Assembly: GCA_030653435.1 (NCBI GenBank)
Contig: JAURZI010000111.1
Location: forward strand, 124,001-188,000
Origin: Methylovulum sp.
GTDB lineage: Bacteria > Pseudomonadota > Gammaproteobacteria > Methylococcales > Methylomonadaceae
Direction of reading: 5' to 3'
Length of the DNA stretch: 64,000 nt
The notes beneath the pieces were generated by a model that was not told where the DNA came from, ran no database searches, and saw only the letters and a list, made by a program, of their open reading frames with translations. This document shows, in pieces, positions 12,957-27,071 of this stretch (the stretch's first letter is position 1; each line of letters begins with the position of its first letter). The translations under genes and the position numbers were made by a program.

Positions 12957-14063
12957 TTATTTTTTGGCTTCAGCCGGTTTTTTTGCTGCGTCAGCCGGCT
13001 TGTTTTCAGCGGCGGGTTTTGCCGCTGCTTCAGGTTTGCTTTCAGCAGCGGCATCTTTGTCTTCTGAAATATCTTCTTCGACAATGATTTTTTCTTCAAC
13101 GGTTTTGCCGTTGGCATCTTTCACTTCTTCAGTGACCACTTCTTCCGTAACGACTTTGCCTGCTTCAGCAGGTTTATCGCTGTCAGCTGCGGCTTTTGGC
13201 TTTTCATCAGTCAGTGGCACCAGGATTTCAACTTTAGCTTGTTTGCGTAAGTTTTCCAGCATGGTTTGCAGTTTTTTGCGTTGCAGGAAGGGGGTCAATT
13301 GCTCTTTTACGGCTTCCAGCGGAGGTGGTGTTTGTGCGCGTGAATCTTCCCTCAAAATAACATGCCAGCCAAACTGGGTTTGCACAGGCGCGCTGGTGTA
13401 TTTGCCTTTTTCCAGCGCGACTACGGCTTTAGAGAACGGCTCAACCATTTGGCTGGCGACAAACCAGCCTAAATCGCCGCCGCTTTGTGATTCTTTGGCA
13501 TCCAGGGAGTTTTTGTTTGCCAATTTGGCAAAATCAGCGCCTTTATCCAGTTCGGCGATGATTTTTTTAGCTTCTGCTTCGGTTTTTACCAAAATATGGC
13601 GGGCTTTGTATTCGGTCGCGTTAGCCCCGCCAACTTTGCTGTCATATTCGGCTTTGATTTCTGCATCAGTGACCGGATTGGTTTTCATGAAGTTTTGCAC
13701 ATCGGCTTGCGTCAGGATTGATTTTTTGGCATCTTCAATATTCGCCAGCACTTCCGGTGATTTGTCGAGTTGTTTTTGCACGGCATCCTGAACCAGCAGT
13801 TCACGTTGGATCAGTTCTTCGACTAATTTTTCTTTAGGGATAACTTGCCCTTGGCTACGCGCCGCAATTTCTTTTTCCAGATTGGCCAGCGTTTCCTTGG
13901 CGATATATTTGCCGTTAACGACGGCGATGGCATCCGCTTTGTTGACAACAGGCGCGGCAACAGGAGCTGCGGCATTATCAGCGGTTTTTTGGTCGCAACC
14001 GGCAGCCATTAAAGCGGTGCCGACAACAAGCAGGGGCATAAAAGATTTTTTCATGGTATTCAT
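12957..14063 (-). CDS. PpiC/SurA-like peptidyl-prolyl isomerase lipoprotein with charged C-terminal tail
   Basis: 368 residues. A lipoprotein signal peptide ends in LMAAGC, so the mature protein is probably anchored at the envelope. A SurA_N-like helical region (about 45-150) precedes a single parvulin domain (about 150-245: ARHILVKTEAEAKKI, SGGDLGWF, GWHVI). The last 100 residues are a low-complexity Ala/Lys/Glu/Pro tail, unusual for SurA or PrsA homologues and probably disordered. The role would be folding of exported proteins. It is the last gene of a run with bolA, yciI and yciB, 15 bases after bolA. An AGGA ribosome site supports the ATG at 14063. Confidence 0.87.
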   Translation of the reverse strand: MNTMKKSFMPLLVVGTALMAAGCDQKTADNAAAPVAAPVVNKADAIAVVNGKYIAKETLANLEKEIAARSQGQVIPKEKLVEELIQRELLVQDAVQKQLDKSPEVLANIEDAKKSILTQADVQNFMKTNPVTDAEIKAEYDSKVGGANATEYKARHILVKTEAEAKKIIAELDKGADFAKLANKNSLDAKESQSGGDLGWFVASQMVEPFSKAVVALEKGKYTSAPVQTQFGWHVILREDSRAQTPPPLEAVKEQLTPFLQRKKLQTMLENLRKQAKVEILVPLTDEKPKAAADSDKPAEAGKVVTEEVVTEEVKDANGKTVEEKIIVEEDISEDKDAAAESKPEAAAKPAAENKPADAAKKPAEAKK

Positions 14064-14078
14064 TAGCTAAGGTTTCCT

Positions 14079-14345
14079 TTAGTTTTTTTCAGAGGGTGAA
14101 AGGGCATTAATGCCTAAGGCATGAATCTGTTGTTTCATCAAGTCGCCCAGCGCTTGGTAAACCAGTTGATGGCGTTGGACGGATGATTTGCCTTCAAAAG
14201 CATCCGCGATGATGGTGACATGATAATGACCGCCGCCGCTACGTGCGCCGGCGTGCCCTGCATGTGCCGCGCTGCTGTCAATAATTTCCAGCAAATCTGG
14301 TTTAAAAGCATCGGTTAATGCGTTCTTGATTAATTCGGTTGTCAT
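14079..14345 (-). CDS. BolA family protein
   Basis: 88 residues. BolA-fold signature: the loop with [21 protein letters not shown], then HRLV-like [14 protein letters not shown] with the invariant histidine, and a C-terminal [10 protein letters not shown]. BolA proteins bind [2Fe-2S] clusters together with monothiol (CGFS) glutaredoxins; a CGFS glutaredoxin gene lies at the other end of this window, although the two are far apart. Its start overlaps the yciI stop (ATGA), so translation is coupled. Confidence 0.88.
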
Positions 14346-14644
14346 TGTGGGAATACTTTTTTAAAGGGTTTAACGGTGATTTTGGCATAAACGCCAGCAT
14401 CAATATAGGGGTCGGCGTCAGCCCATTGTTGGGCGGACGACAAATTATCGAATTCAGCGACAATCAGGCTACCGGTAAAACCGTCTGCACCGGGATTTTC
14501 GGCATCGAGTGCAGGGTGGGGGCCTGCCAACACAAGCTTTCCGGCGTTTTGTAATTCCTGTAGCCGGGCAATATGGGCGGGCCTTGCAGAGATTCGTTTG
14601 TCCAAACTATTCAGGGCATCTTCGCTGATAATGGCGTATAACAC
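14342..14644 (-). CDS. yciI: YciI family protein
   Basis: 100 residues with the YciI ferredoxin-like fold: [10 protein letters not shown] start, [11 protein letters not shown] containing the conserved His, [12 protein letters not shown] with the conserved Asp region, and [10 protein letters not shown]. YciI proteins are thought to use a His-Asp pair, with substrate unknown. The yciB-yciI-bolA order is conserved in many gammaproteobacteria, which supports the identity more than the function. Confidence 0.87.
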
Positions 14645-14645
14645 T

Positions 14646-15182
14646 CTATTCCTCCGTTTCGGGGACGTATTTATATAAAAAAATCATTTGTAAGACAATA
14701 AAAATAACCATCAGGGCTGGCACGCCAAAGGTTTTAAACGTCACCCAGTCGTCAGTTGAATAATTGTACATGACATACAGGTTGATAAACCCTACGCTGA
14801 TAAAGAAGCCGCCCCATAGCATGTTCAAGCGCCCCCATACTTCGGGGGGCAAGCTTATGCTGGATGACATCATGCGTTCGACAAACGGTTTTTTTCCAAT
14901 CACCTGGCTGCCCAGGAAGGCTACGCCAAACAACCATTCGATGATGGATAATTTCCATTTGATAAATTGTTCATCCTGCAAGTACAGCGTCGCCCCACCC
15001 ATAACTATTATGAGGCCTAGCGTAATCCATTGCATCGTTTCAACTTTACGGTGTTTAAACCAGTTATACGAGACCTGAATAATGGTGGCGACCATGACCA
15101 CTGCGGTTGCCACATAGATGTCGTAAAATTTATAGGCGATAAAAAATAAAACAATAGGGAAAAATTCGAAAAGTTGTTTCAT
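14646..15182 (-). CDS. yciB: Inner membrane septation protein A (YciB/IspZ)
   Basis: 178 residues with five transmembrane helices, beginning [18 protein letters not shown], the typical YciB start. Other family marks are the [12 protein letters not shown] helix and [13 protein letters not shown]. YciB affects septation and envelope biogenesis in enterobacteria through interaction with elongasome and divisome proteins. It is the first gene of the minus-strand run; yciI begins one base after its stop. Confidence 0.93.
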
Positions 15183-15205
15183 AGGGTCAGTTTAAGGGGA
15201 GGGGG

Positions 15206-15535
15206 TTAAGCGTAAGTGTCCACGCCTGTTATGAATGGGGTGCGCTGGGCTTGCAAGCTCTGGTTGAGTTCCTGGTGATAAGCATTAAGCGCGTTTAAAG
15301 TCCGTTTATCAGTGGGGATGTAGGCGTTGTTTGGGTTAGCGGAATCGAAATTTGAACCGGCGGCTTCCGAGATATTTAATACTTTATTCGCAGGATAGGC
15401 ACGCAGTAACGACTGGTTTTCTTTGCCGGCAGGGAGTTCGGTTTTTTCATTTTGTTGGGTATTGTTGCTTTTGCTAATGAGCTGCTGATTAAGCCGGGCA
15501 GGTGAAAAAGTCAACGAAGAACTATGAATTTTCAT
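15206..15535 (-). CDS. Hypothetical protein, 109 residues
   Basis: I do not recognise a family. The protein is polar, rich in Asn, Gln and Ser, has no signal peptide or membrane helix, and ends in FITGVDTYA. A helical stretch LNALNAYHQELNQSLQAQ precedes the C-terminus. It lies 23 bases upstream of yciB on the same strand, so it may be the first gene of that transcript. Codon use resembles the neighbours, and no overlapping better frame exists. Confidence 0.6.
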   Translation of the reverse strand: MKIHSSSLTFSPARLNQQLISKSNNTQQNEKTELPAGKENQSLLRAYPANKVLNISEAAGSNFDSANPNNAYIPTDKRTLNALNAYHQELNQSLQAQRTPFITGVDTYA

Positions 15536-15666
15536 ATTGTTACCTGTCAGGATTCACAAGGTTGTCGCGCAAACGCAGAGCGCGTATTGTAGAGTTATTA
15601 GCCACAAAAGTACATGGGGCGATATTCGCTTCTGATAGAATAACCTTTATTTGACAGGAAAAAACG

Positions 15667-15972
15667 ATGTCCAAACAGATACAAACCGAATTGGAGGCTG
15701 CGGTGTTCAGACGCTTGGTCAGCCATTTGCAACAACATACCGAGGCCCAGAATATCGATCTGATGATACTGGCGGATTTTTGCCGGAATTGTTTGGCGAA
15801 ATGGTATGTTGCCGCTGCGACAGAGCAGGGCGTTGCCATTGATTATGAGGCAGCCAGGGAGATGATTTATGGCATGCCCTACGGCGAATGGAAGGATAAA
15901 TACCAAACCGAGGCGACTGCCGAGCAATTAGCGGCTTATGCCCTGAAACAAGACGCCAGGCATGACGGCTGA
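15667..15972 (+). CDS. DUF1244 family protein
   Basis: 101 residues. The C-terminal half contains DFCRNCLAKWYVAAA and EMIYGMPYGEWKDKYQ, the hallmark motifs of DUF1244, small helical proteins of unknown function widespread in proteobacteria. The RNC region could bind metal, but that is not shown. An AGGAAA ribosome site precedes the ATG by 7 bases. It stands alone and converges with rlmJ. Confidence 0.88.
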   Translation: MSKQIQTELEAAVFRRLVSHLQQHTEAQNIDLMILADFCRNCLAKWYVAAATEQGVAIDYEAAREMIYGMPYGEWKDKYQTEATAEQLAAYALKQDARHDG

Positions 15973-15981
15973 CCGCTTGCA

Positions 15982-16833
15982 TTATGGGGCGGTTTCGTCG
16001 GCTAAGGTTTGTATCCGGTAAAAACCGGCTCCTTCGTCGCCTAAAACGTCTGCCAGCCAGGGTAAAACCCGCCGCATTTCAGCCGCCAGCGTCCACGGTG
16101 GGTTGACCACGATCACACCGCAAGCTGTCATGCCATGCCCATCAGAATCGGCTTGCAGGCCCAACTCGAACAGTTGCACGTCCTTCATGCCGCTTGTGCT
16201 TAACGCCCGTTCCAGCGCCAAATTGCGGTGGCGTTCGACCACCGGGTACCAAAGTGCGTAAGTGCCGGTAGCAAAGCGTTGGTTCATGTTGATTAACGTT
16301 TCTACGGCGCGCGTATAATCGCTTTTGATTTCATAGGATGGGTCGATGAGCACCAGTCCGCGGCGTTCCTTGGGCGGCAATAAGCCTAGTGCGTGTTTCA
16401 AGCCGTCGGCATGGAACACCGTGATGCGCTTGTCCTGTTTGACGATTTTGTTCAGCGCCTGCACTTCGGTGCTATGCAGTTCGCACAGCAACAGCCGGTC
16501 TTGTCGGCGCAGCAGCTGTTTGGCTAGCAGCGGCGAGCCCGGATAGCGGCTGAGCTGGGGCGTAGCATTAAACTGTTTGATGATGTTCAGATAGTCGGCG
16601 ACACTGTCCGGCAAGTCATCGCGTAACCATAATTTGCCGATGCCGTTGTCAAACTCGCGGTTTTTTAGCGCATAGCTGCCGTCCAGTGCATAGTCACCTG
16701 GTCCTGCATGCGTGTCTATACAGCAATAGGCCTTGTCTTTGCGGTTTAAGTGACCAAGGATTTGCGTCAAAATGAGATGCTTTAATACATCGGCAAAATT
16801 GCCCGCATGGAAGGCGTGTCGGTAACTCAGCAT
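15982..16833 (-). CDS. rlmJ: 23S rRNA (adenine2030-N6)-methyltransferase RlmJ
   Basis: 283 residues. It methylates A2030 of 23S rRNA with S-adenosylmethionine. Family features are the N-terminal LSYRHAFHAGNFADVLKH, the SAM motif region CIDTHAGPGDY, and the catalytic motif LIDPSYE (D/N-P-P-Y/F-like, here DPSYE). Length matches E. coli RlmJ (280). It is a single gene between convergent DUF1244 and the signalling operon on the same strand 37 bases upstream. Confidence 0.94.
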   Translation of the reverse strand: MLSYRHAFHAGNFADVLKHLILTQILGHLNRKDKAYCCIDTHAGPGDYALDGSYALKNREFDNGIGKLWLRDDLPDSVADYLNIIKQFNATPQLSRYPGSPLLAKQLLRRQDRLLLCELHSTEVQALNKIVKQDKRITVFHADGLKHALGLLPPKERRGLVLIDPSYEIKSDYTRAVETLINMNQRFATGTYALWYPVVERHRNLALERALSTSGMKDVQLFELGLQADSDGHGMTACGVIVVNPPWTLAAEMRRVLPWLADVLGDEGAGFYRIQTLADETAP

Positions 16834-16870
16834 GGGTGGATTTTATGATCGGCAGGCAACAGGATGGATA

Positions 16871-18151
16871 TTAACGGCTGAACCAACAGGTTTGGTTACG
16901 GCCTTTGGATTTGGCGGTATAAAGTGCGGAGTCCGCGTGATGCAGAGCGATTTCACTATTGGCGTTTGTTGCCGATAATGCGGCGACGCCGATGCTGACG
17001 GTATAACTTATCTGGCCTTTTGCATGCGGCAGTATGGCCGCGGCTACCTGCATCCGTAAGCGCTCGGCCATCGCCAGGGCATCGGTTCGATCGGCACCCG
17101 GCAGGATGATTGCAAACTCTTCGCCGCCCAAGCGTGCAGGCAAGTCAATGCTGCGTACGTTAGCCCTGATCAAATCGGCAAAATGGCGCAACACCTCATC
17201 CCCGGCAGCATGACCGTAGGTGTCATTGATACGCTTAAAGTGGTCCAAATCCAGCATCAGCAGCGCTATCGGCGCGCTGTCCAATCGGGCTAGCCGTGCC
17301 GTCTCCTGCTCCAAATGCTCCAAAAATACCCTGCGGTTGAACAGTCCGGTTAAAGAATCGGTGCGGGCCAGCCTTTGCAGCTCTTCCTCCATGCGTTTGC
17401 GTTCGGTAATATCTTCCTTAATGCCGATAAAATGATTGATTTCCCCGGCCTCATTGCGTACCGGGGAAATGCTCAGTTCTTCATGATAAAGCTCGCCATT
17501 CTTGCGTCTGTTGATGATTTCCCCGCGCCAGGTATCGCCTTTAAGGATGGTTTTCCACATGGCTTCGTAAAAACCTTGATCTTGTAAGCCTGATTTAATC
17601 AATTCAGCCGGTCGTTTGTTCAGCACGTCCTGCAAATCATAGCCACTCGATTTACAAAAGGACGGGTTGGCCCATTCGATATACCCTTCCTTGTCGGTTA
17701 TGACTATGCTATTGGCGGCGGCTTCCAATGCCGCCACCAATAACCGGTTATGGGCGTCCATTTCGACGCGTTGCATGGCATAGCGGATGGCGCGTATCAG
17801 GCTGTCCGGGCTGAACTCGCCTTTGACCAAATAATCGGCCGCGCCTGCTTCCAATGTATTCAGGGCAAATTCAGTGTCGTATTGCCCGGTCAAGACGATA
17901 ATCGCCACGCCACGGTTGGTTTTTTTTATCATACGCACCGTGTCCAGCCCTGAAGAGTCAGGCAATGACAAATCGAGCAACACCACATCAAAGGGCTGTT
18001 GCGCCAATTGTTGCTGTGCTTTGCTTAAGGTGTCTACGCAGATCACGTCAAAAGACGCACTGTGCGGCTGGCGTAAACCTATTTGCACCAGCCGTGCATC
18101 GCCTATTTCGTCTTCAACCAATAACACCCGGATTGATTTGAGCATATTCAT
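16871..18151 (-). CDS. Receiver-PAS-GGDEF diguanylate cyclase
   Basis: 426 residues from the ATG at 18151, whose ATGA overlaps the stop of the preceding receiver gene. Order: receiver domain (1-125, phospho-Asp in VVLLDLSLPDSSG), PAS/PAC (about 140-255), GGDEF (about 265-426). The active-site motif is RLGGEEF, competent for c-di-GMP synthesis, and an RSID motif five residues upstream is a canonical RxxD product-inhibition site. It is the output gene of the five-gene operon and would turn kinase signals into c-di-GMP. A reading from 18190 would add 13 residues inside the upstream gene and is not preferred. Confidence 0.93.
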   Translation of the reverse strand: MNMLKSIRVLLVEDEIGDARLVQIGLRQPHSASFDVICVDTLSKAQQQLAQQPFDVVLLDLSLPDSSGLDTVRMIKKTNRGVAIIVLTGQYDTEFALNTLEAGAADYLVKGEFSPDSLIRAIRYAMQRVEMDAHNRLLVAALEAAANSIVITDKEGYIEWANPSFCKSSGYDLQDVLNKRPAELIKSGLQDQGFYEAMWKTILKGDTWRGEIINRRKNGELYHEELSISPVRNEAGEINHFIGIKEDITERKRMEEELQRLARTDSLTGLFNRRVFLEHLEQETARLARLDSAPIALLMLDLDHFKRINDTYGHAAGDEVLRHFADLIRANVRSIDLPARLGGEEFAIILPGADRTDALAMAERLRMQVAAAILPHAKGQISYTVSIGVAALSATNANSEIALHHADSALYTAKSKGRNQTCWFSR

Positions 18152-18597
18152 GCCGTTTTCTCTTGCGGCAAACGCACTAGATCGAACCAATAATCGCCCA
18201 GCCTGGTGATGGCTGCTATCAGTTGGGTAATATCGATGGGTTTGGTGATGTAGCCGGCGGCGCCCAGGTCATAGGAGATGAAAATGTCGCGCTCTACATT
18301 CGATGTGCTCAGCACGACTACCGGAATGGTCTTGAAGGCTTTGTCCGCTTTAATGGCGGACAAAAATTCGTAACCGTTCATGCGAGGCATGTTGATGTCC
18401 AATAGGATCAGATCCGGACAAGGCGCATTGTCATATTCGCCGTTACGCCTTAGAAAGTCCAAACCTTCGATGCCACCTGCCACATGGCTCATGCGGGCGA
18501 GTATTTTGCTTTCCTTAAGCGCCAGTTTTACTAAATAAGCATCGGCAGGCTCATCTTCCAGTAATAAAATTTCAAAAGGTTTAGGCTGGGTAAGCAT
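18148..18597 (-). CDS. Single-domain response regulator, Rcp1-like
   Basis: 149 residues forming a stand-alone receiver domain. The acidic pocket is LLLEDEPAD, the phospho-Asp is in LILLDINMPRMNG, the Thr/Ser switch in VVLSTSN and the Lys in GYITKPID. The slightly long alpha-4 region is typical of Rcp1-type receivers that partner phytochrome-like kinases. The ATG overlaps the stop of the upstream kinase (TAATG) and the gene overlaps the diguanylate cyclase, so it probably shuttles phosphate between the kinases and the cyclase receiver. Confidence 0.93.
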   Translation of the reverse strand: MLTQPKPFEILLLEDEPADAYLVKLALKESKILARMSHVAGGIEGLDFLRRNGEYDNAPCPDLILLDINMPRMNGYEFLSAIKADKAFKTIPVVVLSTSNVERDIFISYDLGAAGYITKPIDITQLIAAITRLGDYWFDLVRLPQEKTA

Positions 18598-20906
18598 TAA
18601 CTGTCTCGTGTGTATTGGGGTAAATCGAATAATACGGTGAGGCCGCCGCCGGGTGTTTCTTGCAAACTTACTGAGCCGTTACAGCTTTCGACGATGCGTT
18701 TGACTATGGCCAGGCCGATACCGGTACTCCTGGGGTTGCTGCTTAGCTGCAAGCGTTCAAAGACACGAAAAACCCGTTCGCGGTAGGCTGGTGGAATGCC
18801 GGTGCCATTATCGGCAAAGCGGCAATATACTCTGCCTGCTTTTAACTCGCCACTGATACGTATTATGGGCGCCCTGTCTTGCCTGGCATAAAGCAAGGCA
18901 TTATCCGTCAGGATGCCCACAAGGCTGTGTAAACGCTGTTTGTCGATCTCGATTTTAGGCAATCCCTCAGCACAGTCAATGCTTGCCTTGTGTTCCTCTA
19001 TATATTGGCCGTAACGCGCTGTCACTTGATGCACTATATGTGTTAAATCAACGGCTTCAATCGGCCCGCCCGGTTCGCTAGCGACCAGGTAAAGATCAAT
19101 GTCACTGACTAAGGCCCGCTGCCGTATCGCGCTTTGTTCAAGGTAGTAAAGGCTTTGGGAAATGTCATCGTTCATTCCGGTTTCGTACAACTGCTGGCTG
19201 AGCTGTTGGGTAAAATTTAATATCCGTCGCGTCGGTTCTTGTAAATGGTGTGCGGCGATGACGGCAAACTGGTGTAGGGTGGCTTCGGCATGTTTAAGTT
19301 TGCTGATGTCCGTGCAAGAGCCGATATAACCGAGGAACACCCCTTGCTCATCAAACCGGGGGACGGCGCAATCAAGCAGCCAACGGTATTCGCCATCGTA
19401 GCGCCTCAACCGATATTCCATCTGGAAGGGTTGTCGCGCATCAAAACGGGTGGCGTAAACGGTCTGGCAAAGTCGGGCATCATCGGGATGCACATGTTCC
19501 ATCCAGCCGTTGCCTAATTCCTGTTCCAGGCGGCGTCCGGTGAAATCAAGCCAAACCTGATTAAACCAGTTGCATAGCTTGTCGGTACCGGACATCCAGA
19601 TCAATACCGGCGCGGCATTGGCAACGCTACGGAAGCGGGCTTCGGATTCTTGCAGCGCCGATTCAAAATGCTTGCGTTCGGTGATGTCCCGCGAGGAGGC
19701 GAACAATAAAGGTTCGCCGCCTATTTCAATACCACGCGCACTGATTTCTACATCGATAACCCGGTTGTCGGCCCTGCGGTGCCGGGTATTGAAAACAGCG
19801 GGTTGCCGGATTAATTGTTGGATTTTACTTAATAGCTGTTCCGGCGACCATTGCCTATCCCAATCTTTGATATTCAGCAACGTGCCTACCGGATAGCCCA
19901 ACATTTGATAAAAGGAATCGCTGGCTTCCAGCAACCGGCCTTGGGCATCGAGTACATGTAATCCATCGGTGGCGGTTTCGAGCAATAGCTGGTAGCGCTG
20001 TTTTTCTTTGGACAGGTTTTTTTCTATTTGTTTGCGTTCAGCGAGATACGTGGCTTGGGCCATGCCGACCAGCGCCAATATCACCGTATAAAACCATAAG
20101 TTAGTCAGACCGGTTTGGGCAATGTCGTCGGCAAAATAACCCACTCCGTGTATCGCGCCCAGTAAGGCTTGGCCTGCTATCATGACGATAACAAGTACAG
20201 TGCCGTGGATGCCCAGGTAAATAGCGGTAAACGTGACAAACAAAAACATCAGGAAGCCGCGGGCCAGTATACCGATAGCATCATGGAACCAGCCCAGGAA
20301 TACAATCTGCCCCATTAAAAAAGTCAATAGCAATGGCAGCGCCAGTTCGAGGATGCTTGTGTGCTTGGGCCAGTGATAAGGCGGTTGCCAAATTAACATT
20401 AGCGGCGTCAGCAATACGATACCCAGGGTGTCGCCCATCCACCAGCGGGTCGCGTCCAGAATAAATATGCCGGTCGGGGACGTGCCGGACAGCAGCAGCA
20501 CGGCGGCAACGAATACGGCGCCGATTATGCAGCCTATGCCGGCGCCCAAGACGATCAGGCGCAGATAATCCCGTAAGGAAATGATGTTTAAATTAAATGG
20601 CCTGCCGCGTGCCAGCAAGTAGTGGGCCAATAAGGCTTCCAGCGTACTGCCTACGGCAATGGGCAAAGCCACGGCAACGGGAAGTCCGGTTAGCGTGTTG
20701 TTCACGAATGCTCCTGCCAGCACCGCCCAGGCATAGCGTTTGCCGCCCAGCAGCAAGACCGCCAATGCCAGACCGCTGGGCGGCCAGACCACGTTCACGA
20801 CGCTGTAGGCGGCAAAAAAGCCCAGCGTCAGCTGGGCTAGCAGCAGGTAAAGGATAGCCACAGCGACTATTTTAAAGAGAGTCTGTGCAGTTTCCGTGGG
20901 CATCAT
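18597..20906 (-). CDS. MASE1-PAS-PAS histidine kinase
   Basis: 769 residues. The N-terminal 300 residues form a multi-helix MASE1 sensor (VVNVVWPPSGLALAVLLLGG). Two PAS domains follow (about 310-420 and 430-550), then a HisKA-type dimerisation helix and an HATPase_c domain with DNALLYA, DNGTGIP and STGIGLAIVKRI. At the phospho-acceptor site the usual SHDLQEP is AHHLQEP: the histidine is kept, but the acidic residue after it, normally the general base for autophosphorylation, is His. The start codon overlaps the stop of the upstream PBP-kinase. Confidence 0.92.
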   Translation of the reverse strand: MMPTETAQTLFKIVAVAILYLLLAQLTLGFFAAYSVVNVVWPPSGLALAVLLLGGKRYAWAVLAGAFVNNTLTGLPVAVALPIAVGSTLEALLAHYLLARGRPFNLNIISLRDYLRLIVLGAGIGCIIGAVFVAAVLLLSGTSPTGIFILDATRWWMGDTLGIVLLTPLMLIWQPPYHWPKHTSILELALPLLLTFLMGQIVFLGWFHDAIGILARGFLMFLFVTFTAIYLGIHGTVLVIVMIAGQALLGAIHGVGYFADDIAQTGLTNLWFYTVILALVGMAQATYLAERKQIEKNLSKEKQRYQLLLETATDGLHVLDAQGRLLEASDSFYQMLGYPVGTLLNIKDWDRQWSPEQLLSKIQQLIRQPAVFNTRHRRADNRVIDVEISARGIEIGGEPLLFASSRDITERKHFESALQESEARFRSVANAAPVLIWMSGTDKLCNWFNQVWLDFTGRRLEQELGNGWMEHVHPDDARLCQTVYATRFDARQPFQMEYRLRRYDGEYRWLLDCAVPRFDEQGVFLGYIGSCTDISKLKHAEATLHQFAVIAAHHLQEPTRRILNFTQQLSQQLYETGMNDDISQSLYYLEQSAIRQRALVSDIDLYLVASEPGGPIEAVDLTHIVHQVTARYGQYIEEHKASIDCAEGLPKIEIDKQRLHSLVGILTDNALLYARQDRAPIIRISGELKAGRVYCRFADNGTGIPPAYRERVFRVFERLQLSSNPRSTGIGLAIVKRIVESCNGSVSLQETPGGGLTVLFDLPQYTRDS

Positions 20907-23017
20907 GCTAGGTTTGTGATAACCGGGATTTCAAACCAAAAGCAACTACCCTGATTTTCCCCTAAGGATTCGACGCCTATTCGGCCGCCGTGATGCTCGA
21001 CAATTTTTCGGCACAGCGCGAGCCCCACACCCGTGCCTTCAAACCGGCTGCGCGTTTGCAGGCGCGAGAACACTTTAAACAACCGGTCAGTTTGGGCAGG
21101 ATCGATGCCTACGCCTTGGTCGCGCACGGTTACCCTAAACACTCCGGCTATCGTCGAGCCTTCGATGTCCACATGAGGAGCTACTCCTTCGGCATGATAT
21201 TTAACGGCATTACTAATCAGGTTTTGCAGTAAGCGGCTCAGCTCATCACGACTGGCCACCAGCTCCGGCCAATCCCCCGATACCTGCACACAGGCCCCGC
21301 TGGCGCTTATTTCCGGTTCCAGGAATGCCAATGCTTCAGCCAGCACCTCGCGGCTGGCAATACGCGCCATGGGCGCAGTGATGCGTCCGATCCGGGAGAA
21401 GTCCAGTAAGGACAGGATCATTTGGTCCATGCGTTTGGCGCCATCAATTGCAAACGCCAGGTATTGCCGGGTGTCGTCATCCAGTTGTGCCGCCAATGCC
21501 CGCTCAATCAACGACAGGTAACTACTCACCATGCGTAACGGCTGGCGCATATCGTGCGAGATGGCATAGGCGAATTGTTCCAGGTCGGCATTAGAACGAT
21601 GCAGTTCTGCTTCCACTTTTTTGTGCGGCGTGATGTCTGTGGAAATGCCGCATAAGGCGTAGATATGGCCGTGGCTGTCGCGCAAGGGCAGTTTTATGGA
21701 CAGATGGCTGTGTTGTTGGCCGGTTATCTTGAAGGTGTTGGTTTCGACGATTTCCAGGCGTTCGCCGTTTTCAAGGACACGGCGGTCATTGGCTTTGGTT
21801 TGCCCGGCGTTGTCGGCAGTAAAGAAATCGTCGGCTTCGTGCCCCACGATTGCCGATAACGGTGCGCCAAAAAGTTCGCAAAGCGCATGGTTGACAAACT
21901 GATAACGGTAATGGGTGTCTTTGATATAGATACAGGCGCCGAGATTGTCGAGTATGGCCGCTAATTTATTTTCGCCTTCCCTTGCGTGGTTTCTGGCCTG
22001 TCGCAACTGTCTGTTTTTCAGCAACAGCAGCAAGGCCAGCAATCCGATGACTACACCGGCTAGTGCCAGAATAGCGGCTTGGTAGCGGTAGCGCACGATA
22101 ATGTCCCGCCAGGTAAAGGTGGGGGCCGTATCAAAAGGGGGGAGGCGTAACGCCCTCAGCAAGTCTTCTACCGGTCCGTAATCGGCCGGGATGGTAAAGC
22201 CGTGATAGCCGAAGGCGCGGGCCAGCGGCCCCTCATGCTCAATCATCAGTAACAGGGCGGTGACTTGACGGGCGAGTTCTTCATCGACATTCGGCGTCGC
22301 AACGAATGGCCAGTTCGGGTAAAGCCGGGTGGACAATACATAAGGGAAGCTGGGCAGGTCTTGCCGGTTGAGAATTTTAAACTGGTTGAGCTTAAGTTTG
22401 CCGGCTTTGTCCATTGTTTCCAGGACACCGGTACGCACGAAACCCACATCGGCTTTTTTTTTCAGCACCGCATCAACGACGTTATCATGCGGCATTCCGG
22501 CTTCAAGCAGCCGGACATCATCATTCACCGCAATGCCTGCTTCTGCCAGTTGGTAAGCCTGGGCCTGATAGCCGCCTAAGGACGAGGTGCTGGGTGCCGC
22601 CAGTATTTTGTCTTTGAGATCCGCCAGCCGGTTAATATCGTTACGTTGCTTCAGGGTGAAAATCACACCGCCCAAGGCGTCCAATGGCTGCTGGTCCACC
22701 GAGTCCTGTAAGGTTGCCAACACGCCGGACAAGGCGTTTTTTTGCCGCAATTGCATGTAATGTCCAGGGTTGGTGAGGACGAAATCGAGCTCATGGCGCT
22801 GCAATTGGCTGTCCAACTCAACAAGATCCAATATCCGTATACTCAGTTGTTTGCCCGGTAGCGAGCGCGTCAAATATTCGGCTAACGGTTGCCAGCGGGC
22901 TTCCATAGCAATCTTGGGGTTGGTCGCCAGAATGCCTAAGGTCATGGTTCGCTGCTGGGAAAACCCCGGCGCCGACATCAGCATGTATCCTAAGGCTATC
23001 CATAACAAGCAACGCAT
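20903..23017 (-). CDS. Hybrid sensor: PhnD-like periplasmic domain fused to PAS histidine kinase
   Basis: 704 residues. Signal peptide (1-20), a PhnD/type-2 periplasmic binding domain to about residue 300 (MTLGILATNPKIA, DFVLTNPGHYMQLR, LGGYQAQAYQL, GFVRTGVLETM), a membrane helix near 315-335 (AILALAGVVIGLLALLLLL), a PAS domain, a HisKA helix with intact SHDMRQPLR, and HATPase_c with NLISNAVKYH, DQGVGID and GTGVGLALCRKI. The architecture reads an extracytoplasmic small molecule directly into autophosphorylation. The ligand is unknown; PhnD domains bind phosphonates or related anions in transporters. It starts 1 base after the binding-protein gene. Confidence 0.93.
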   Translation of the reverse strand: MRCLLWIALGYMLMSAPGFSQQRTMTLGILATNPKIAMEARWQPLAEYLTRSLPGKQLSIRILDLVELDSQLQRHELDFVLTNPGHYMQLRQKNALSGVLATLQDSVDQQPLDALGGVIFTLKQRNDINRLADLKDKILAAPSTSSLGGYQAQAYQLAEAGIAVNDDVRLLEAGMPHDNVVDAVLKKKADVGFVRTGVLETMDKAGKLKLNQFKILNRQDLPSFPYVLSTRLYPNWPFVATPNVDEELARQVTALLLMIEHEGPLARAFGYHGFTIPADYGPVEDLLRALRLPPFDTAPTFTWRDIIVRYRYQAAILALAGVVIGLLALLLLLKNRQLRQARNHAREGENKLAAILDNLGACIYIKDTHYRYQFVNHALCELFGAPLSAIVGHEADDFFTADNAGQTKANDRRVLENGERLEIVETNTFKITGQQHSHLSIKLPLRDSHGHIYALCGISTDITPHKKVEAELHRSNADLEQFAYAISHDMRQPLRMVSSYLSLIERALAAQLDDDTRQYLAFAIDGAKRMDQMILSLLDFSRIGRITAPMARIASREVLAEALAFLEPEISASGACVQVSGDWPELVASRDELSRLLQNLISNAVKYHAEGVAPHVDIEGSTIAGVFRVTVRDQGVGIDPAQTDRLFKVFSRLQTRSRFEGTGVGLALCRKIVEHHGGRIGVESLGENQGSCFWFEIPVITNLA

Positions 23018-23018
23018 C

Positions 23019-23987
23019 TTAATCCTCTTGCGGCAAATAATCGGCGCTGATCAGCTGGGCCAAGGCATCGCCACGGGCAATAAAATGCTCTTTGACCATT
23101 AGCGTCGAAAGTGTTTGGGCGACATTGAGCAACGGGCTATCCGAAGCAGCAAGCAATTTCCGGTTGGCGTACAGATCGGGCAGGTCTATGCCCCGGAACG
23201 TGTTTAATACCTGGTTGCCGGGGACCTGCAAGCGCTCCGCCATGCGGTAAGCGGCATCCAGAGGATTGCCGCGCAGGTGTTTCAAGGCGCGCAAATGCCC
23301 TGCCACTAACGCTTTAACGGCGGCCGGGTTGCTTTGTAAGGCATCCGTTCTGACCGCCAGCACATCGAAAATGGTGTTGGGCAGTTTCCTGCTGTCGAAC
23401 AGCAGACGGGCGTCTTGGTTGAGCAGCTTGCCGGCGACCGGCTCATAGGTGATCAAGGCATCCACTTTCCCGTCATGCCATGCGTCCAGATGGTCATTGA
23501 TATTAAGCGGCACCGGCAGCACGTCTGTTGGTTTGAGCTTCGCGGCGGCTAAGGTTTTAAACAGCATTAACGCGCCTAATGCCGATTGTTCAACGCCGAT
23601 GCGTTTGCCGACGAGCTTATTCAGGCTGTCGATGCCGGGTTTGCCCAACACCTGGTCGGCCCCGACCGACATATCGAAAACCAACACCACGGTCAAGGCT
23701 ATGCCTTGCGCCCTGGCGCGCAGCACTTCATCCAGTGTCAGCGCCGCGCCGTCTGCCTTGCCTTCCGTCAGGGCTTGCAAAGATGCCGTAGCGGACGTGG
23801 TTTCTTGCAGTATCAGGCCTTGCTGCGGCAGCCAGCCTTCGCGGCGGGCTAAAAACATCAGCTCATAACCCGGCCAAACATGGCTGGCTATCGTCAACGG
23901 CGGGGTCCGGCGAACATCGCAGCGGATGAGCGCAGGCAGCATGATGAGCATCAGCAGCAGGGCCAGATTGCGGTGCAGGGAAAACAT
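23019..23987 (-). CDS. Periplasmic substrate-binding protein, NMT1/SsuA-TauA type
   Basis: 322 residues. N-terminal hydrophobic export segment followed by an NMT1-like binding fold: SHVWPGYELMFLARREGW, the ATASLQALTEGKADGAALTLDE stretch split across two strands, GKRIGVEQSALGALM, and VDALITYEPVAGKLL. Such proteins normally feed ABC importers for sulfonates, nitrate or pyrimidine precursors, but no permease or ATPase gene is nearby. Being first in an operon of sensor kinases, it is better explained as a ligand-presenting sensor partner. The signal peptide ends LIRC, a poor lipobox, so lipidation is uncertain. Confidence 0.88.
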   Translation of the reverse strand: MFSLHRNLALLLMLIMLPALIRCDVRRTPPLTIASHVWPGYELMFLARREGWLPQQGLILQETTSATASLQALTEGKADGAALTLDEVLRARAQGIALTVVLVFDMSVGADQVLGKPGIDSLNKLVGKRIGVEQSALGALMLFKTLAAAKLKPTDVLPVPLNINDHLDAWHDGKVDALITYEPVAGKLLNQDARLLFDSRKLPNTIFDVLAVRTDALQSNPAAVKALVAGHLRALKHLRGNPLDAAYRMAERLQVPGNQVLNTFRGIDLPDLYANRKLLAASDSPLLNVAQTLSTLMVKEHFIARGDALAQLISADYLPQED

Positions 23988-24032
23988 CAGATGGGCCTTT
24001 TGGGCAAAAGTAGGTATAGCATCGGCGATGCG

Positions 24033-24827
24033 TCAGAACATTTTGCTGAATATGGTCATGCCGATTTCAAACGCGATCAGCCCGATAATGATTAATTCCA
24101 ATATGGATGAATGCCGGTGTTTTTGTTCGTCCGCCAACATTTCAAATAATTCGTGGATAGTTTCCAGTTTCTTCGACAGCACTCCGGTGCGGGGAGCCAC
24201 TTCAAGATATTTGGCGGCAATGCTGTAAAAGGTTTCGTATTCGGGATATTCCCAAAAAAAATCCGGGGTATCCAGTAAATCGTAATTCAGGATAATGTCG
24301 CTTTTGGTTAAAAACAGTTGTCCACGGATTTTGGCAATTTTATGGCGGCTTAGTTTGATGCTGCCGTTTTCTGCCAATGATTTCGGGATATAGCGCGTAT
24401 TATTGATCGTACTTATCGCATTGGTTTCAAACGACGCCAGTTTTATCGACTGCGCCATAGCTTGTGACAACGAAAACATCAGGATAGGATCAGAAGACTC
24501 AATTTCAATATGGTCTTCGATAATGCGCGTGCCGGCGCAATCCAGCGCGAAAGTGAAATGGTCCTCTTCTATAATGTCTAACGGGTTTTCTGCATGCTGC
24601 AATAGCAACTGGCGCAATTTGGCTTGCTGTTCGGCACTGACATTCCACAGCACAACGGCTCCGTAAGCAAACACGACTGACCAGGAATGGTCATCTTCTA
24701 TGAGTAGTGAGCCTTTAATAATCCGTATCAGTGTTGAATCGGAAATTAAGTTTGCCAGTGCGCTAATGTCAAAACCTTGGGCAAGGCAGTAGGCGGTGCA
24801 GTGCATGGTTTTATGGTTTTCCGACAT
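24033..24827 (-). CDS. RMD1/DUF155 family protein with C-terminal membrane anchor
   Basis: 264 residues. Family marks are the AYGAVVLWNVS strand, IRGQLFLTKSDIILNYDLLDTPDFFW and the TIHELFEML helix; a C-terminal transmembrane segment (LELIIIGLIAFEIGMTIF) completes the RMD1/Sif2 layout. Eukaryotic relatives act in mitochondrial translation and meiotic division; bacterial function is not known. It stands alone, 45 bases downstream of the signalling operon's first gene border on the same strand, so it may be upstream in the same transcript, but the strong hairpin at 24851-24916 is before it, not after. Confidence 0.85.
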   Translation of the reverse strand: MSENHKTMHCTAYCLAQGFDISALANLISDSTLIRIIKGSLLIEDDHSWSVVFAYGAVVLWNVSAEQQAKLRQLLLQHAENPLDIIEEDHFTFALDCAGTRIIEDHIEIESSDPILMFSLSQAMAQSIKLASFETNAISTINNTRYIPKSLAENGSIKLSRHKIAKIRGQLFLTKSDIILNYDLLDTPDFFWEYPEYETFYSIAAKYLEVAPRTGVLSKKLETIHELFEMLADEQKHRHSSILELIIIGLIAFEIGMTIFSKMF

Positions 24828-24850
24828 GACGGGTCCTCACAGGCAACGGC

Positions 24851-24916
24851 GCAGGCCGGATCGCCCTCACACGCCCTGATGCACAAGGTATGGGGCGTAT
24901 AGGTGATCCGGCCTGC
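24851..24916. terminator. Long two-stage inverted repeat, possible terminator of the 24942-25355 gene
   Basis: GCAGGCCGGATC (24851-24862) pairs perfectly with GATCCGGCCTGC (24905-24916), and an inner pair ACGCCC/GGGCGT (24871-24876/24893-24898) extends the structure. It follows the stop of the minus-strand secreted-protein gene at 24942 and precedes the RMD1 start. No long U tract follows, so it may act as a partial terminator or an RNA-stabilising hairpin. Confidence 0.6.
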
Positions 24917-24941
24917 ATTCATAATGATTATAATTCAAGGG

Positions 24942-25355
24942 TCATCGGTCGGCTATTTTCAACAGCCAGCCGTTTTCAGCTTCACAGCGCGGGGATTTGG
25001 CACTGACTTTGATATTGATACGGGCTGCCGTGTTGACTAGGCTATCAGGTAATTTGCCTTTTACCAGATAATAAGGATCCTTGAATTCAGTAGTCAGTTC
25101 AACCGGTATGTTTTTTACCGTGGCGGAAATTTGTTCAGGTTTGTGGATGTTCAGCGCAATAAACGAAAATTCGGCGCCGGGCACTACGGTTTCAAGATGC
25201 GCGGGTTGAAATTTTGCCAGATGTGGTTTTACGCAGCTACTGGCGCTGCCTCCGCCGCCGCCAGCCCCACCGCCATGACCGCTATGATGTTCTGTAGCTT
25301 CGGCAACGCCGACGGAACATAGCGCGGCAAGCATAAGTGACATTATTTTTTTCAT
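24942..25355 (-). CDS. Hypothetical secreted protein with glycine-rich N-terminus
   Basis: 137 residues. A clear signal peptide ends near AEA-TEHH. The mature N-terminus is a His/Gly-rich stretch (HHSGHGGGAGGGGG), followed by a small beta-rich domain with two cysteines (SSCVKPHL and SPRCEAENG) that could form a disulfide. I do not recognise a family. The His-rich start could bind metal; this is inference. It is flanked by a strong hairpin downstream and a 164-base gap upstream (25356-25519) in which nothing was recognised. Confidence 0.7.
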   Translation of the reverse strand: MKKIMSLMLAALCSVGVAEATEHHSGHGGGAGGGGGSASSCVKPHLAKFQPAHLETVVPGAEFSFIALNIHKPEQISATVKNIPVELTTEFKDPYYLVKGKLPDSLVNTAARINIKVSAKSPRCEAENGWLLKIADR

Positions 25356-25519
25356 AGGTTTTTCCTCTCATTATTTTTATTATCATACGACGGCACGGTC
25401 ATGTTGCCATGTCGGCATGTAGCGTGCAACACCTTCATTTTATTGGCCTCAGTTCAGCGAATATATAGGCAGTGCCATCACTGCCAATTATAGTCCAGTG
25501 TGCGGGCCAAATTCTAAGC

Positions 25520-26320
25520 TTAACGCCGCTTGGGTTTACGCAATGGTTTAAACGGCAACACCAATAATGACCAAAAACCGAGTTCAGATGGGTTGCGAAA
25601 TGTTGGCAAACCAATAGGCATTATGGTTTGCGGCAGGCTGGGCTCTGCCTTATAGGTGCGGAACAGCCTATCCCAGCAGGATAGGGAAAAGCCGTAATTG
25701 CTGTCTGTTTCGGATGGTAGCGTGGAATGGTGAATCCGGTGCATGTCAGGCGTGACTATCAGCCGGCGCAGTTTGTTATCCAGCGCCGGTGACAGCTGGA
25801 TGTTGCTATGGTTAAACGTTGCCGCGCCATTAAGCATGATTTCAAAGATCATGACCGCCAGCGGATGGGCGCCGATGAGCGCAATGCACAGCACTTTGTA
25901 GGCCAGCGACAACAGGATTTCCAAAGGATGGAAACGGATTGCCGTAGTCGCGTCTATAGCCATGTCGGTATGATGGATTTGGTGTAAACGCCAAAGCACC
26001 GGCCATTTATGTGCGGCGATATGCTGACCGTAAATTGCTATATCGAGGCCTAGCAGCGTGATGATGATAGCCAGCCAGCCGGGTACGGCGAGCAGGTTAA
26101 GCAAGCCATAACCGTGTTCGGCGGCGGTTACGGCGCTTAATCCGGCAAGCCCGCCGACGCTGATACGCAAGATCAGCATATTGGTTGCTGCCAAGCCCAG
26201 GTTAACCGGCCAGCGTTGTTTCCGGCGGACAGGCATCAATCTTCTGGGGCTAAGGTACTCCCAGGCTATCATCAAGCTGAAAATGCCGAGTGCCGCAGTT
26301 AAGCGGATTAGGTTTTCCAT
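25520..26320 (-). CDS. Fatty acid hydroxylase/sterol desaturase superfamily membrane protein
   Basis: 266 residues, four to five membrane helices. Di-iron histidine boxes are intact: HIAAHKWPVLWRLHQIHHTD gives HxxxH and HxxHH, and FNHSN and HRIHHS give the later boxes. These enzymes oxidise lipid or sterol CH groups using O2. The substrate is unknown; type I methanotrophs make hopanoids and some make sterols, but this gene lies with a glycosyltransferase rather than a lipid cluster. The glycosyltransferase ends exactly one base before this gene begins, so the two are probably cotranscribed. Confidence 0.88.
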   Translation of the reverse strand: MENLIRLTAALGIFSLMIAWEYLSPRRLMPVRRKQRWPVNLGLAATNMLILRISVGGLAGLSAVTAAEHGYGLLNLLAVPGWLAIIITLLGLDIAIYGQHIAAHKWPVLWRLHQIHHTDMAIDATTAIRFHPLEILLSLAYKVLCIALIGAHPLAVMIFEIMLNGAATFNHSNIQLSPALDNKLRRLIVTPDMHRIHHSTLPSETDSNYGFSLSCWDRLFRTYKAEPSLPQTIMPIGLPTFRNPSELGFWSLLVLPFKPLRKPKRR

Positions 26321-26998
26321 CTATTTCCCCTTGTTATACAGTGCAGCCAAGGCATCGGGGTCGGCTCCCAGGAAATACCGCCAGCGCAAGCGCCACATTA
26401 ATACTATCGTTTGCCATACGCCGTGCCGTTCCCAGCGGCGACCCGAACTGCTGACTTTTGCATCCAGGCAAATCGGGCGGCTGAGTTTATTGAGCGTCTT
26501 GCACAGGGCGATATCTTCCATCAGGGCAATGTCGGGATATTGGCCGATGGCTGAAAAGACGGTATGGCTGACAAAGATCGCCTGGTCGCCTGTGGCTATG
26601 CCAGTGAGTCTGGAGCGCCGGTTCATCATAAATGCAATCACTTTCAACATGACCGGTTTGCCGCTTAAGTGAATGTCAAAATGTCCCCATTGCCCAGGGG
26701 AGCCTAGCTGTTGCCTTATTAAATGCAGGGCGTTGGGCGGCAGAGAGGTGTCTGCATGCAGGAAAAGCAGGACATCCCCGGTCGCCTGGTCGGCGCCTGC
26801 GTTCATTTGTCTGGCGCGCCCTGTTGCCGAGCACACTATTTTGTCGGCCAATGCGGCAGCCCGTTCTACAGTGTTATCGTCGCTGCCGCCATCGGCAACG
26901 ATAATCTCGGCGGTGCTGCGTAAGGGTTGTAAGGCCGATAAGCAGCGTTGGATGCCGTCCTCTTCATTCAGCGTCGGGATGATGATGGAGAATTTCAT
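26321..26998 (-). CDS. Family 2 glycosyltransferase, TIGR04283-type
   Basis: 225 residues. GT-A fold: KFSIIIPTLNEEDGI, IIVADGGSDDNT, QMNAGADQATGDVLLFLHADT (DxD-like HAD), and GDQAIFV. The short length, lack of membrane helices and the FLHADTSLP motif match the TIGR04283 subgroup (rSAM/selenodomain-associated, some linked to arsenosugar synthesis). The acceptor is unknown. It precedes a fatty-acid-hydroxylase-type gene with zero gap, so a lipid or small-molecule modification role is possible. Confidence 0.85.
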   Translation of the reverse strand: MKFSIIIPTLNEEDGIQRCLSALQPLRSTAEIIVADGGSDDNTVERAAALADKIVCSATGRARQMNAGADQATGDVLLFLHADTSLPPNALHLIRQQLGSPGQWGHFDIHLSGKPVMLKVIAFMMNRRSRLTGIATGDQAIFVSHTVFSAIGQYPDIALMEDIALCKTLNKLSRPICLDAKVSSSGRRWERHGVWQTIVLMWRLRWRYFLGADPDALAALYNKGK

Positions 26999-27071
26999 GG
27001 CAAATCAAGGCTCAAGCTAAGCGCGTCTGCAGCGCACGCCCTTGACTTTCGTCGGTAAACACCGGTTTTGC

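Follow-up and report, generated by a model that had tools for sequence, protein, structure and literature searches.

A five-gene locus of Methylovulum sp. joining a periplasmic binding protein to a conserved signalling cassette with a predicted sensor phosphatase and a predicted diguanylate cyclase

Results

The window, a stretch of 64,000 nucleotides from Methylovulum sp. (assembly GCA_030653435.1, contig JAURZI010000111.1, positions 124,001 to 188,000), carries a five-gene cluster on its minus strand at positions 16871-23987. The host genome comprises 4.66 Mb in 161 contigs, and the window lies on the contig that we call C4. The cluster encodes, in this order, a solute-binding protein (SBP; gene 1), a histidine kinase with a PhnD-like sensor domain (HK1), a second kinase-like membrane sensor (HK2), a stand-alone receiver (RR) and a receiver-PAS-GGDEF protein (RRG) predicted to make cyclic diguanylate (c-di-GMP). 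None of the genes has an internal stop, the recomputed intergenic gaps are +1, −4, −1 and −4 bases, and Pfam confirmed the domains; the overlapped gene set that an earlier note on this DNA had described is thereby borne out. An abnormal H-box of HK2 (AHHLQEP) was missing from that note. Comparison with other genomes shows that the locus is two conserved modules joined, namely an SBP input and a four-gene output cassette.

Gene 1 (23019..23987, minus strand) encodes a periplasmic binding protein of the NMT1/SsuA fold with 322 amino acids (Pfam NMT1, 1.1e-18) and, judged by eye, a signal-peptide-like N-terminus. Its AlphaFold2 model (predicted local distance difference test, pLDDT, 91) had TauA (6ssy) as best match in the PDB. 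Unlike SsuA and TauA, gene 1 has no permease partner of the ATP-binding cassette (ABC) type; no transporter gene adjoins it within the window, as had been claimed before. The protein carries a clade signature, WPGYE / TLDE / D-x-S-x-G-A-D / GVE, and matches to the protein at E ≤ 1e-20 were found in 77 of 301 order-sampled genomes (its own included) and 27 of 50 genera. Other genomes than that of the window held 81 match places, and we took the neighbourhoods of 72 of these (60 plus 12 weaker). The next gene in most of the fetched loci encodes a membrane sensor and often overlaps the SBP gene by 4 bases. Among 50 sensor N-termini (window included), Phosphonate-bd was present in 26 and HAMP in 21, and nine sensors scanned whole had GGDEF-EAL output (6) or were hybrid kinases (3). 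A wider contig scan yielded 365 SBP relatives. The best 80 of the 365 were found via a DNA pattern around TLDE and are biased towards that motif. Their sources include gamma- and betaproteobacteria, Magnetococcales, Mariprofundus, Geobacteraceae, Desulfuromonas and one Candidatus Polarisedimenticolaceae record, and in most of them the gene after that of the SBP encodes a cyclase or kinase, of the PhnD type or another. Sensors follow the SBP at short gaps or overlaps in both Pseudomonadota and Thermodesulfobacteriota.

For a count of partners we examined 160 loci and dropped 16 that shared the 140-residue core of another, 24 without a called SBP frame (16 SBP relatives, none with a permease match, and 8 own-genome or SsuA-type) and one without room. 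In the 119 distinct loci that remained, a signalling gene is next to the SBP gene in 100 and upstream in 5; 11 have none, and 3 have none plus a permease. At a profile score of ≥300, 101 of 109 loci have a signalling gene beside that of the SBP (96 next, 5 upstream, 8 none). Of these eight, L099 has a kinase later in its run, L079, L084 and L174 have neither, and the remaining four (L037, L039, L041 and L044) are Methylotuvimicrobium-type orphans, in which the signalling-clade protein is kept and neither a sensor nor a permease adjoins it. The gap of the 100 SBP-signalling pairs is −4 in 55. The output of the next gene is GGDEF-EAL in 48, GGDEF alone in 14, a kinase in 33 and partial in 5. GGDEF is therefore present in 62, of which 34 also contain a PhnD domain, which was recognised in 62 of the 100 next genes.

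A permease was sought by tblastn with SsuC, TauC and the permease of locus L224, since a test based on reading frames was weak (it detected the permease of L108 and missed those of L107 and L109). The 110 signalling-clade loci with a score of ≥300 had none within 3 kb, as against 5/5 transporter-type control loci (L105-L109) with a permease beside the SBP; in L038, L042 and L043 a permease lies ~8 kb off on the opposite strand. We rejected a transporter role of gene 1 on this ground. The earlier claim that two import-type binding folds serve here as signalling input is supported, and the check for an ABC permease in the conserved neighbourhood that the earlier note had called for turned up none. 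A quick tree, drawn from a sample of 69 rows and with long branches flagged, grouped 39 signalling rows with 8 unpartnered ones in one clade and placed 10 TIGR03427-like and 3 ABC-linked rows in another (Shimodaira-Hasegawa-like approximate likelihood ratio test, 91 and 92). The weak sensor-linked sequences L101-L104 fall outside both clades.

Some further observations concern binding proteins of this kind. Close to their N-terminus, 50 of 111 signalling-clade proteins have a lipobox-like motif; in gene 1, Cys23 (23921-23923) follows LIR, which is no standard lipobox. Contig C113 of the window's own genome encodes a single 668-residue chain of NMT1, PAS and GGDEF domains (L091:1751-3757), a one-chain version of binding protein to cyclase. 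On contig C27 an ABC_sub_bind-type SBP gene (L097:6740-7717) shares 10 bases with the gene of a hybrid histidine kinase and is possibly part of another binding-protein-controlled kinase pair.

To approach the ligand we compared 111 signalling-clade rows, in which T84, S107 and E133 are invariant and G40, E87, G109 and D111 occur in 109 or 110, with six sister rows (L107-L109 and L202-L204) and six TIGR03427 rows. ABC linkage was found for four of the sister rows, all except L202 and L203: L107-L109 adjoin ABC genes, and the protein of L204 has a permease (L224) 16 bases downstream. G40, S107, G109, D111, P183 and D208 are common to all 12 comparison rows and T84 to 11; of the two kinds of comparison row only the sister rows have E133, and all twelve have Asp for E87. 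Over nine positions, Escherichia coli TauA and SsuA both have P183, one keeps G40 and one D208, both have Glu in place of D111, and neither has any of the remaining signature residues. In the gene 1 model, several signature positions fall where strands end or helices begin, and these are the ligand-binding places in this fold. Gene 1 scored 105.2 with TIGR01728 (SsuA-type sulfonate; cut-off 163.5) and 68.2 with TIGR03427 (annotated for urea and, we presume, linked to guanidine; cut-off 333.9). A TIGR03427-type protein compared with the PDB sequences gave a weak match to a nitrate protein only. By its aligned residues, the gene 1 signature is shared more with the urea-annotated family than with sulfonate proteins. 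Because it is nearer to TIGR03427 than to TauA and SsuA, we would expect a small amide or cationic compound as ligand. A sulfonate was rejected as unsupported, and the sulfonate- or phosphonate-like anion once suggested for the free binding protein is not supported, as the signature differs from TauA and SsuA at most positions.

HK1 (20903..23017, minus strand) has a PhnD-like periplasmic domain at residues 28-277 (Pfam Phosphonate-bd, 1e-44), a hydrophobic stretch at about 313-335 (by eye), and PAS, HisKA and HATPase_c domains. A model of its N-terminal 312 residues (pLDDT 89) matched PtxB, PhnD, XAC2383 (5ub3), ArrX and AioX in the PDB; a phmmer search of the first 350 residues against the PDB sequences gave no match. 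Its H-box, SHDMRQPLR (His488), is canonical and kept in 12/12 aligned cores, and the core presumably resembles that of Cph1. NF040750 (TtrS) scored 187.4 bits, best over the stretch 23-353, below its cut-off of 750. Phosphonate as the ligand of this domain is likewise not supported, although less firmly than for gene 1. The NSTSGF of E. coli PhnD, whose STSG loop binds ligand, aligns with SSLGGY of HK1, so that the loop is replaced by SLGG. Ligands of this fold vary, and BstB of Methylococcaceae binds sterols (PMC10942540). A PhnD-like domain also occurs at the C-terminus of a 718-residue protein with STAS domains on contig C122 of the same genome (L094:4685-6841).

HK2 (18597..20906, minus strand) contains MASE1 (2.1e-28), two PAS domains and HATPase_c, and its core is paralogous to that of HK1 (27% identity). 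Pfam HisKA did not match HK2 of the window or of the relatives G115 and G155. Its H-box reads A-His553-His-Leu-Gln-Glu-Pro-Thr-Arg. In the window's core and 15 similarity-chosen homologues, AHHL(Q/M)EP.RR is kept in 16/16, with His at H+1, Glu at H+4 and Arg at H+7 in every one. We also collected 22 distinct HK2-type cores with a pattern that requires these three residues, so that this set gives no independent count of the motif; the first N-box position is Ile, Leu or Val and never Asn in all 21 that were readable (one was not). The phospho-acceptor His is still present in HK2, as are the DNG and STGIGL motifs of its ATP site. The HK2 profile, searched against the PDB sequences, found 8f71, a canonical kinase, first, and bacteriophytochrome entries next. 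These align to HK2 at SHHMQEPVR and have His at the N-box position; we take them to be DrBphP.

DrBphP of Deinococcus radiodurans is described as kinase-inactive and as an ATP-dependent, light-activated phosphatase, in which the H+4 Glu is important and the H+7 Arg subsidiary (PMC8292422). The same text calls His at H+1 'very rare' and reports loss of kinase activity in Agp1 D529H. We infer that the N-box Asn missing from HK2 is the Asn meant in that paper. HK2 has no phytochrome photosensory input and carries MASE1 and PAS instead. From these residues it is predicted to be a dedicated phosphatase of the DrBphP type.

RR (18148..18597, minus strand; 149 amino acids) is a stand-alone Rcp1-like receiver by Pfam and by its PDB matches, RcpA (1k68), Rcp1 (1i3c) and the response regulator 6xvu, presumably DrRR. 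RRG (16871..18151, minus strand) is a predicted diguanylate cyclase with Response_reg, PAS and GGDEF (3.1e-50) domains. Its start is most likely ATG 18151, which gives 426 amino acids and a 4-base overlap; TTG 18190 was rejected on account of that overlap. Both receivers keep the phospho-Asp and its partner residues. Behind a complete receiver, RRG has GGEEF at 342 and an I-site, RSID, at 333, in line with the intact GGEEF and RxxD noted before and with the motifs of an active, PleD-type diguanylate cyclase. The direct fusion of PhnD domains to GGDEF in 34 of the 100 pairs above also indicates that the proposed c-di-GMP output is probably correct. The window's genome has 38 GGDEF domains, and the locus is therefore one of many c-di-GMP inputs; the NMT1-PAS-GGDEF chain of contig C113 is another.

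HK1-HK2-RR-RRG recurs as a cassette in Methylococcales with swapped inputs. Outside the window, whose proteins serve as reference, identity across cassettes is 48-76% for HK1, 54-72% for RR and 49-64% for RRG. Besides the window, the five-gene order in full was found in G051, in G277, where HK1 lies in two frames, and in G248, where the contig end cuts the cyclase; in G256 the cluster is cut at the contig end within HK1. Because the same order recurs in other genomes, it is more than chance. Of the conservation that the earlier note had proposed to look for, the exact order proved rare among the genomes examined and its two halves common. Genome searches with kinase queries, in which at most 4 or 7 candidates per genome were scored, gave tallies of at least 17 of 237 and at least 8 of 274; both are lower bounds, as G051 (HK2 3.9e-139) is not among the matches listed. 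A receiver-GGDEF gene of 702-792 codons lies directly upstream of the SBP gene in G248, G051, G277 and G256 (L031:5757-8135 and L032-L034; with EAL in G248 and G051, that is, L031 and L033), at the place of the DUF155 gene in the window.

The 22 HK2-type loci were found via HK2 or SBP searches with known misses and are no census. A canonical HK1 stands beside the HK2 core in 19, an RR is near in 18 and an RR-PAS-GGDEF gene in 16. The RR is missing from G259, G112 (contig end), G508 and G008, and the cyclase from these four, G248 (contig end) and G541; in G112 and G145, HK2 precedes HK1. G082, of the same genus as the five-gene relatives, has the four genes without a binding protein there and three SBP matches elsewhere. 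In the Methylobacter-type G115 (g3), HK1 has the ethylene-receptor-like ETR1_N and HK2 has CHASE as input; ETR1_N is also found on HK1 of the Methylobacter-type G131, and CHASE on HK2 of G155. The HK1 cores with ETR1_N in Methylobacter-type genomes include those at L218:10974-14054 and L219:4375-7905, the neighbouring HK2 of L218 carrying CHASE; whether methanotrophs respond to ethylene- or cytokinin-like signals may deserve attention. Inputs are shuffled further in L104 (G259): the canonical HK1-like kinase there carries MASE1, and its neighbours are an HH-type kinase, a distantly related SBP (29%) and a second canonical kinase.

The cluster is flanked by a DUF155 gene 45 bases upstream and by RlmJ downstream. 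An Rfam scan of 14000-27000 gave no match, and a promoter and terminator scan came within about one standard deviation (sd) of shuffled sequence (12 vs 8.4, sd 3.2, and 10 vs 11.8, sd 3.4).

Discussion

We propose that the locus exerts antagonistic control, HK1 phosphorylating the receivers and HK2 dephosphorylating them, with c-di-GMP as output, and we regard this on balance as probable. No longer tied to a transporter, the NMT1-type SBP would bind a small solute and control HK1, acting either together with the PhnD-like domain or alongside it. HK1 would act as a working histidine kinase on the Rcp1-like receiver, the RRG receiver or both, and HK2, gated by its own MASE1 and PAS sensors, would strip phosphate from the same receiver or receivers. 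The ratio of HK1 to HK2 activity would then set cyclase activity and with it the level of c-di-GMP.

The locus had been read before as a two-kinase relay. This is not supported, because HK2 bears the H+1, H+4, H+7 and N-box signature of the dedicated phosphatase DrBphP. Two independent working kinases could nevertheless converge on the two receivers, as a relay or in a branched scheme, if the H+1 His of HK2 were tolerated. Canonical kinases also match the HK2 profile well, both receivers are intact, and HK2 retains its phospho-acceptor and ATP-site motifs. However, HisKA kinases use an acidic residue at H+1 as general base (PMC7005713, PMC3904827), the D529H exchange inactivated Agp1 (PMC8292422), and HK2 lacks both the first N-box Asn and, in the three proteins scanned, a recognisable HisKA domain, so that we consider two working kinases unlikely. 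HK2 might instead be a catalytically weak partner that forms a heterodimer with HK1 or is phosphorylated by it, and serve as a scaffold or allosteric input. The tandem arrangement in 19 of 22 loci and the paralogy of the two cores would fit, but G368 has HK2, RR and cyclase without HK1, and the H+4 Glu and H+7 Arg kept in 16/16 cores would be needless for a mere scaffold; we give this explanation little credence. We think it very unlikely that gene 1 serves ordinary scavenging or transport and is merely co-operonic with signalling genes. It has the NMT1 fold and TauA as its top PDB match, and two of the four orphans without an adjacent sensor (L037, L039, L041 and L044) have a TOBE-type ABC ATPase gene upstream on the same strand. 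Against this stand the permease count (0/110 vs 5/5 controls) and the sensors that follow the SBP so closely in two phyla.

Several points weigh against antagonistic control by HK1 and HK2. DrBphP H533D did not regain kinase activity (PMC8292422), and the residue at H+1 alone is therefore not decisive. The ATP site of HK2 looks intact, and the top PDB match of its profile is canonical. In a class search with the HK2 profile, five canonical cores (L238-L241 and L245) scored 297-327 bits, and the HH-type cores besides that of the window (L242-L244 and L246) scored lower, at 242-295 bits in partial alignments; the profile does not separate HH-type from canonical cores outside the family. HK1 is missing beside three of the 22 HK2 cores (G508, G368 and, at a contig edge, G286), and g21 loci have a PhnD-type kinase, an SBP and an RR with no HK2 near. 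As to the input, the PhnD cassette occurs without an adjacent binding protein in G082, G040, G112 and G145. The genome search found no SBP match in G040, and G112 and G145, both taken as covered, are absent from the SBP match list. Conversely, 38 of the 100 SBP pairs lack a recognised PhnD domain. SBP and PhnD domain are thus separable, so their joint action is not proven and the SBP is best seen as an added input.

The exact gene set, for which the earlier note knew of no described system, was in no paper that we found, and no search was aimed at the HK1-HK2 tandem. No paper joining PhnD or NMT1 with GGDEF was found either, in literature coverage lacking most subscription journals. The elements, however, have described relatives in NspS-MbaA, TtrS, XAC2383-XAC2382 and DrBphP-DrRR. 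RRG shares receiver, GGDEF and I-site with PleD-type cyclases, and PleD has a second receiver where RRG has PAS. RR is like the receivers of Cph1-Rcp1 and other phytochromes, from which the locus differs in its inputs and second kinase. In XAC2383-XAC2382 a periplasmic PhnD-fold protein is reportedly paired with a diguanylate cyclase; the PhnD fold is a free protein there, whereas in the window it is fused to a kinase and an NMT1-type SBP is added. TtrS works with a transcriptional response regulator. TtrS and ThsS resemble HK1 in having a PhnD-like periplasmic domain fused to a histidine kinase (PMC5408782, PMC11293645), of which 838 PhnD-like cases are counted in UniProt (PMC5408782); HK1 falls below the NF040750 cut-off, and the window adds a free SBP. 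Like NspS of NspS-MbaA (PMC9993111), gene 1 is an orphan periplasmic SBP without a transporter partner, encoded beside a membrane transducer in an overlapping gene arrangement, with c-di-GMP as the output, which is a predicted one here. NspS, unlike gene 1, is a PotD-type polyamine SBP, and MbaA is a direct GGDEF-EAL transducer; the window places kinases and receivers between an NMT1-type SBP and the cyclase. More generally, control by SBPs has been described for kinases and for cyclases and phosphodiesterases (PMC9602780, PMC11113362). DrBphP-DrRR is similar to HK2 in the His at H+1, Glu at H+4, Arg at H+7 and the lack of the first N-box Asn (PMC8292422). It differs in that HK2-type proteins have MASE1 or CHASE and PAS as inputs and that their genes lie in tandem with those for a canonical kinase and for a cyclase making c-di-GMP. 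RR of the window also resembles 6xvu, presumably DrRR.

More broadly, Methylococcales may possess a conserved, split two-component cassette in which a single receiver system has its kinase and its phosphatase as separate tandem membrane sensors with exchangeable inputs, the kinase taking PhnD plus a free SBP or else ETR1_N, the phosphatase MASE1 or CHASE. Two outside signals would be compared and the result passed to c-di-GMP, and DrBphP would belong to a wider class of dedicated sensor phosphatases. We offer this tentatively, as a reading that falls a little short of probable. If it is true, phosphorylation and dephosphorylation of a receiver would be divided between two sensors with independent inputs, where the usual design is one bifunctional kinase, and the swapped inputs on constant cores would provide a natural test set for how a kinase and phosphatase pair shares a receiver. 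It would also point to a solute that is sensed by a widespread SBP signalling clade and feeds into c-di-GMP in many Proteobacteria, methanotrophs included.

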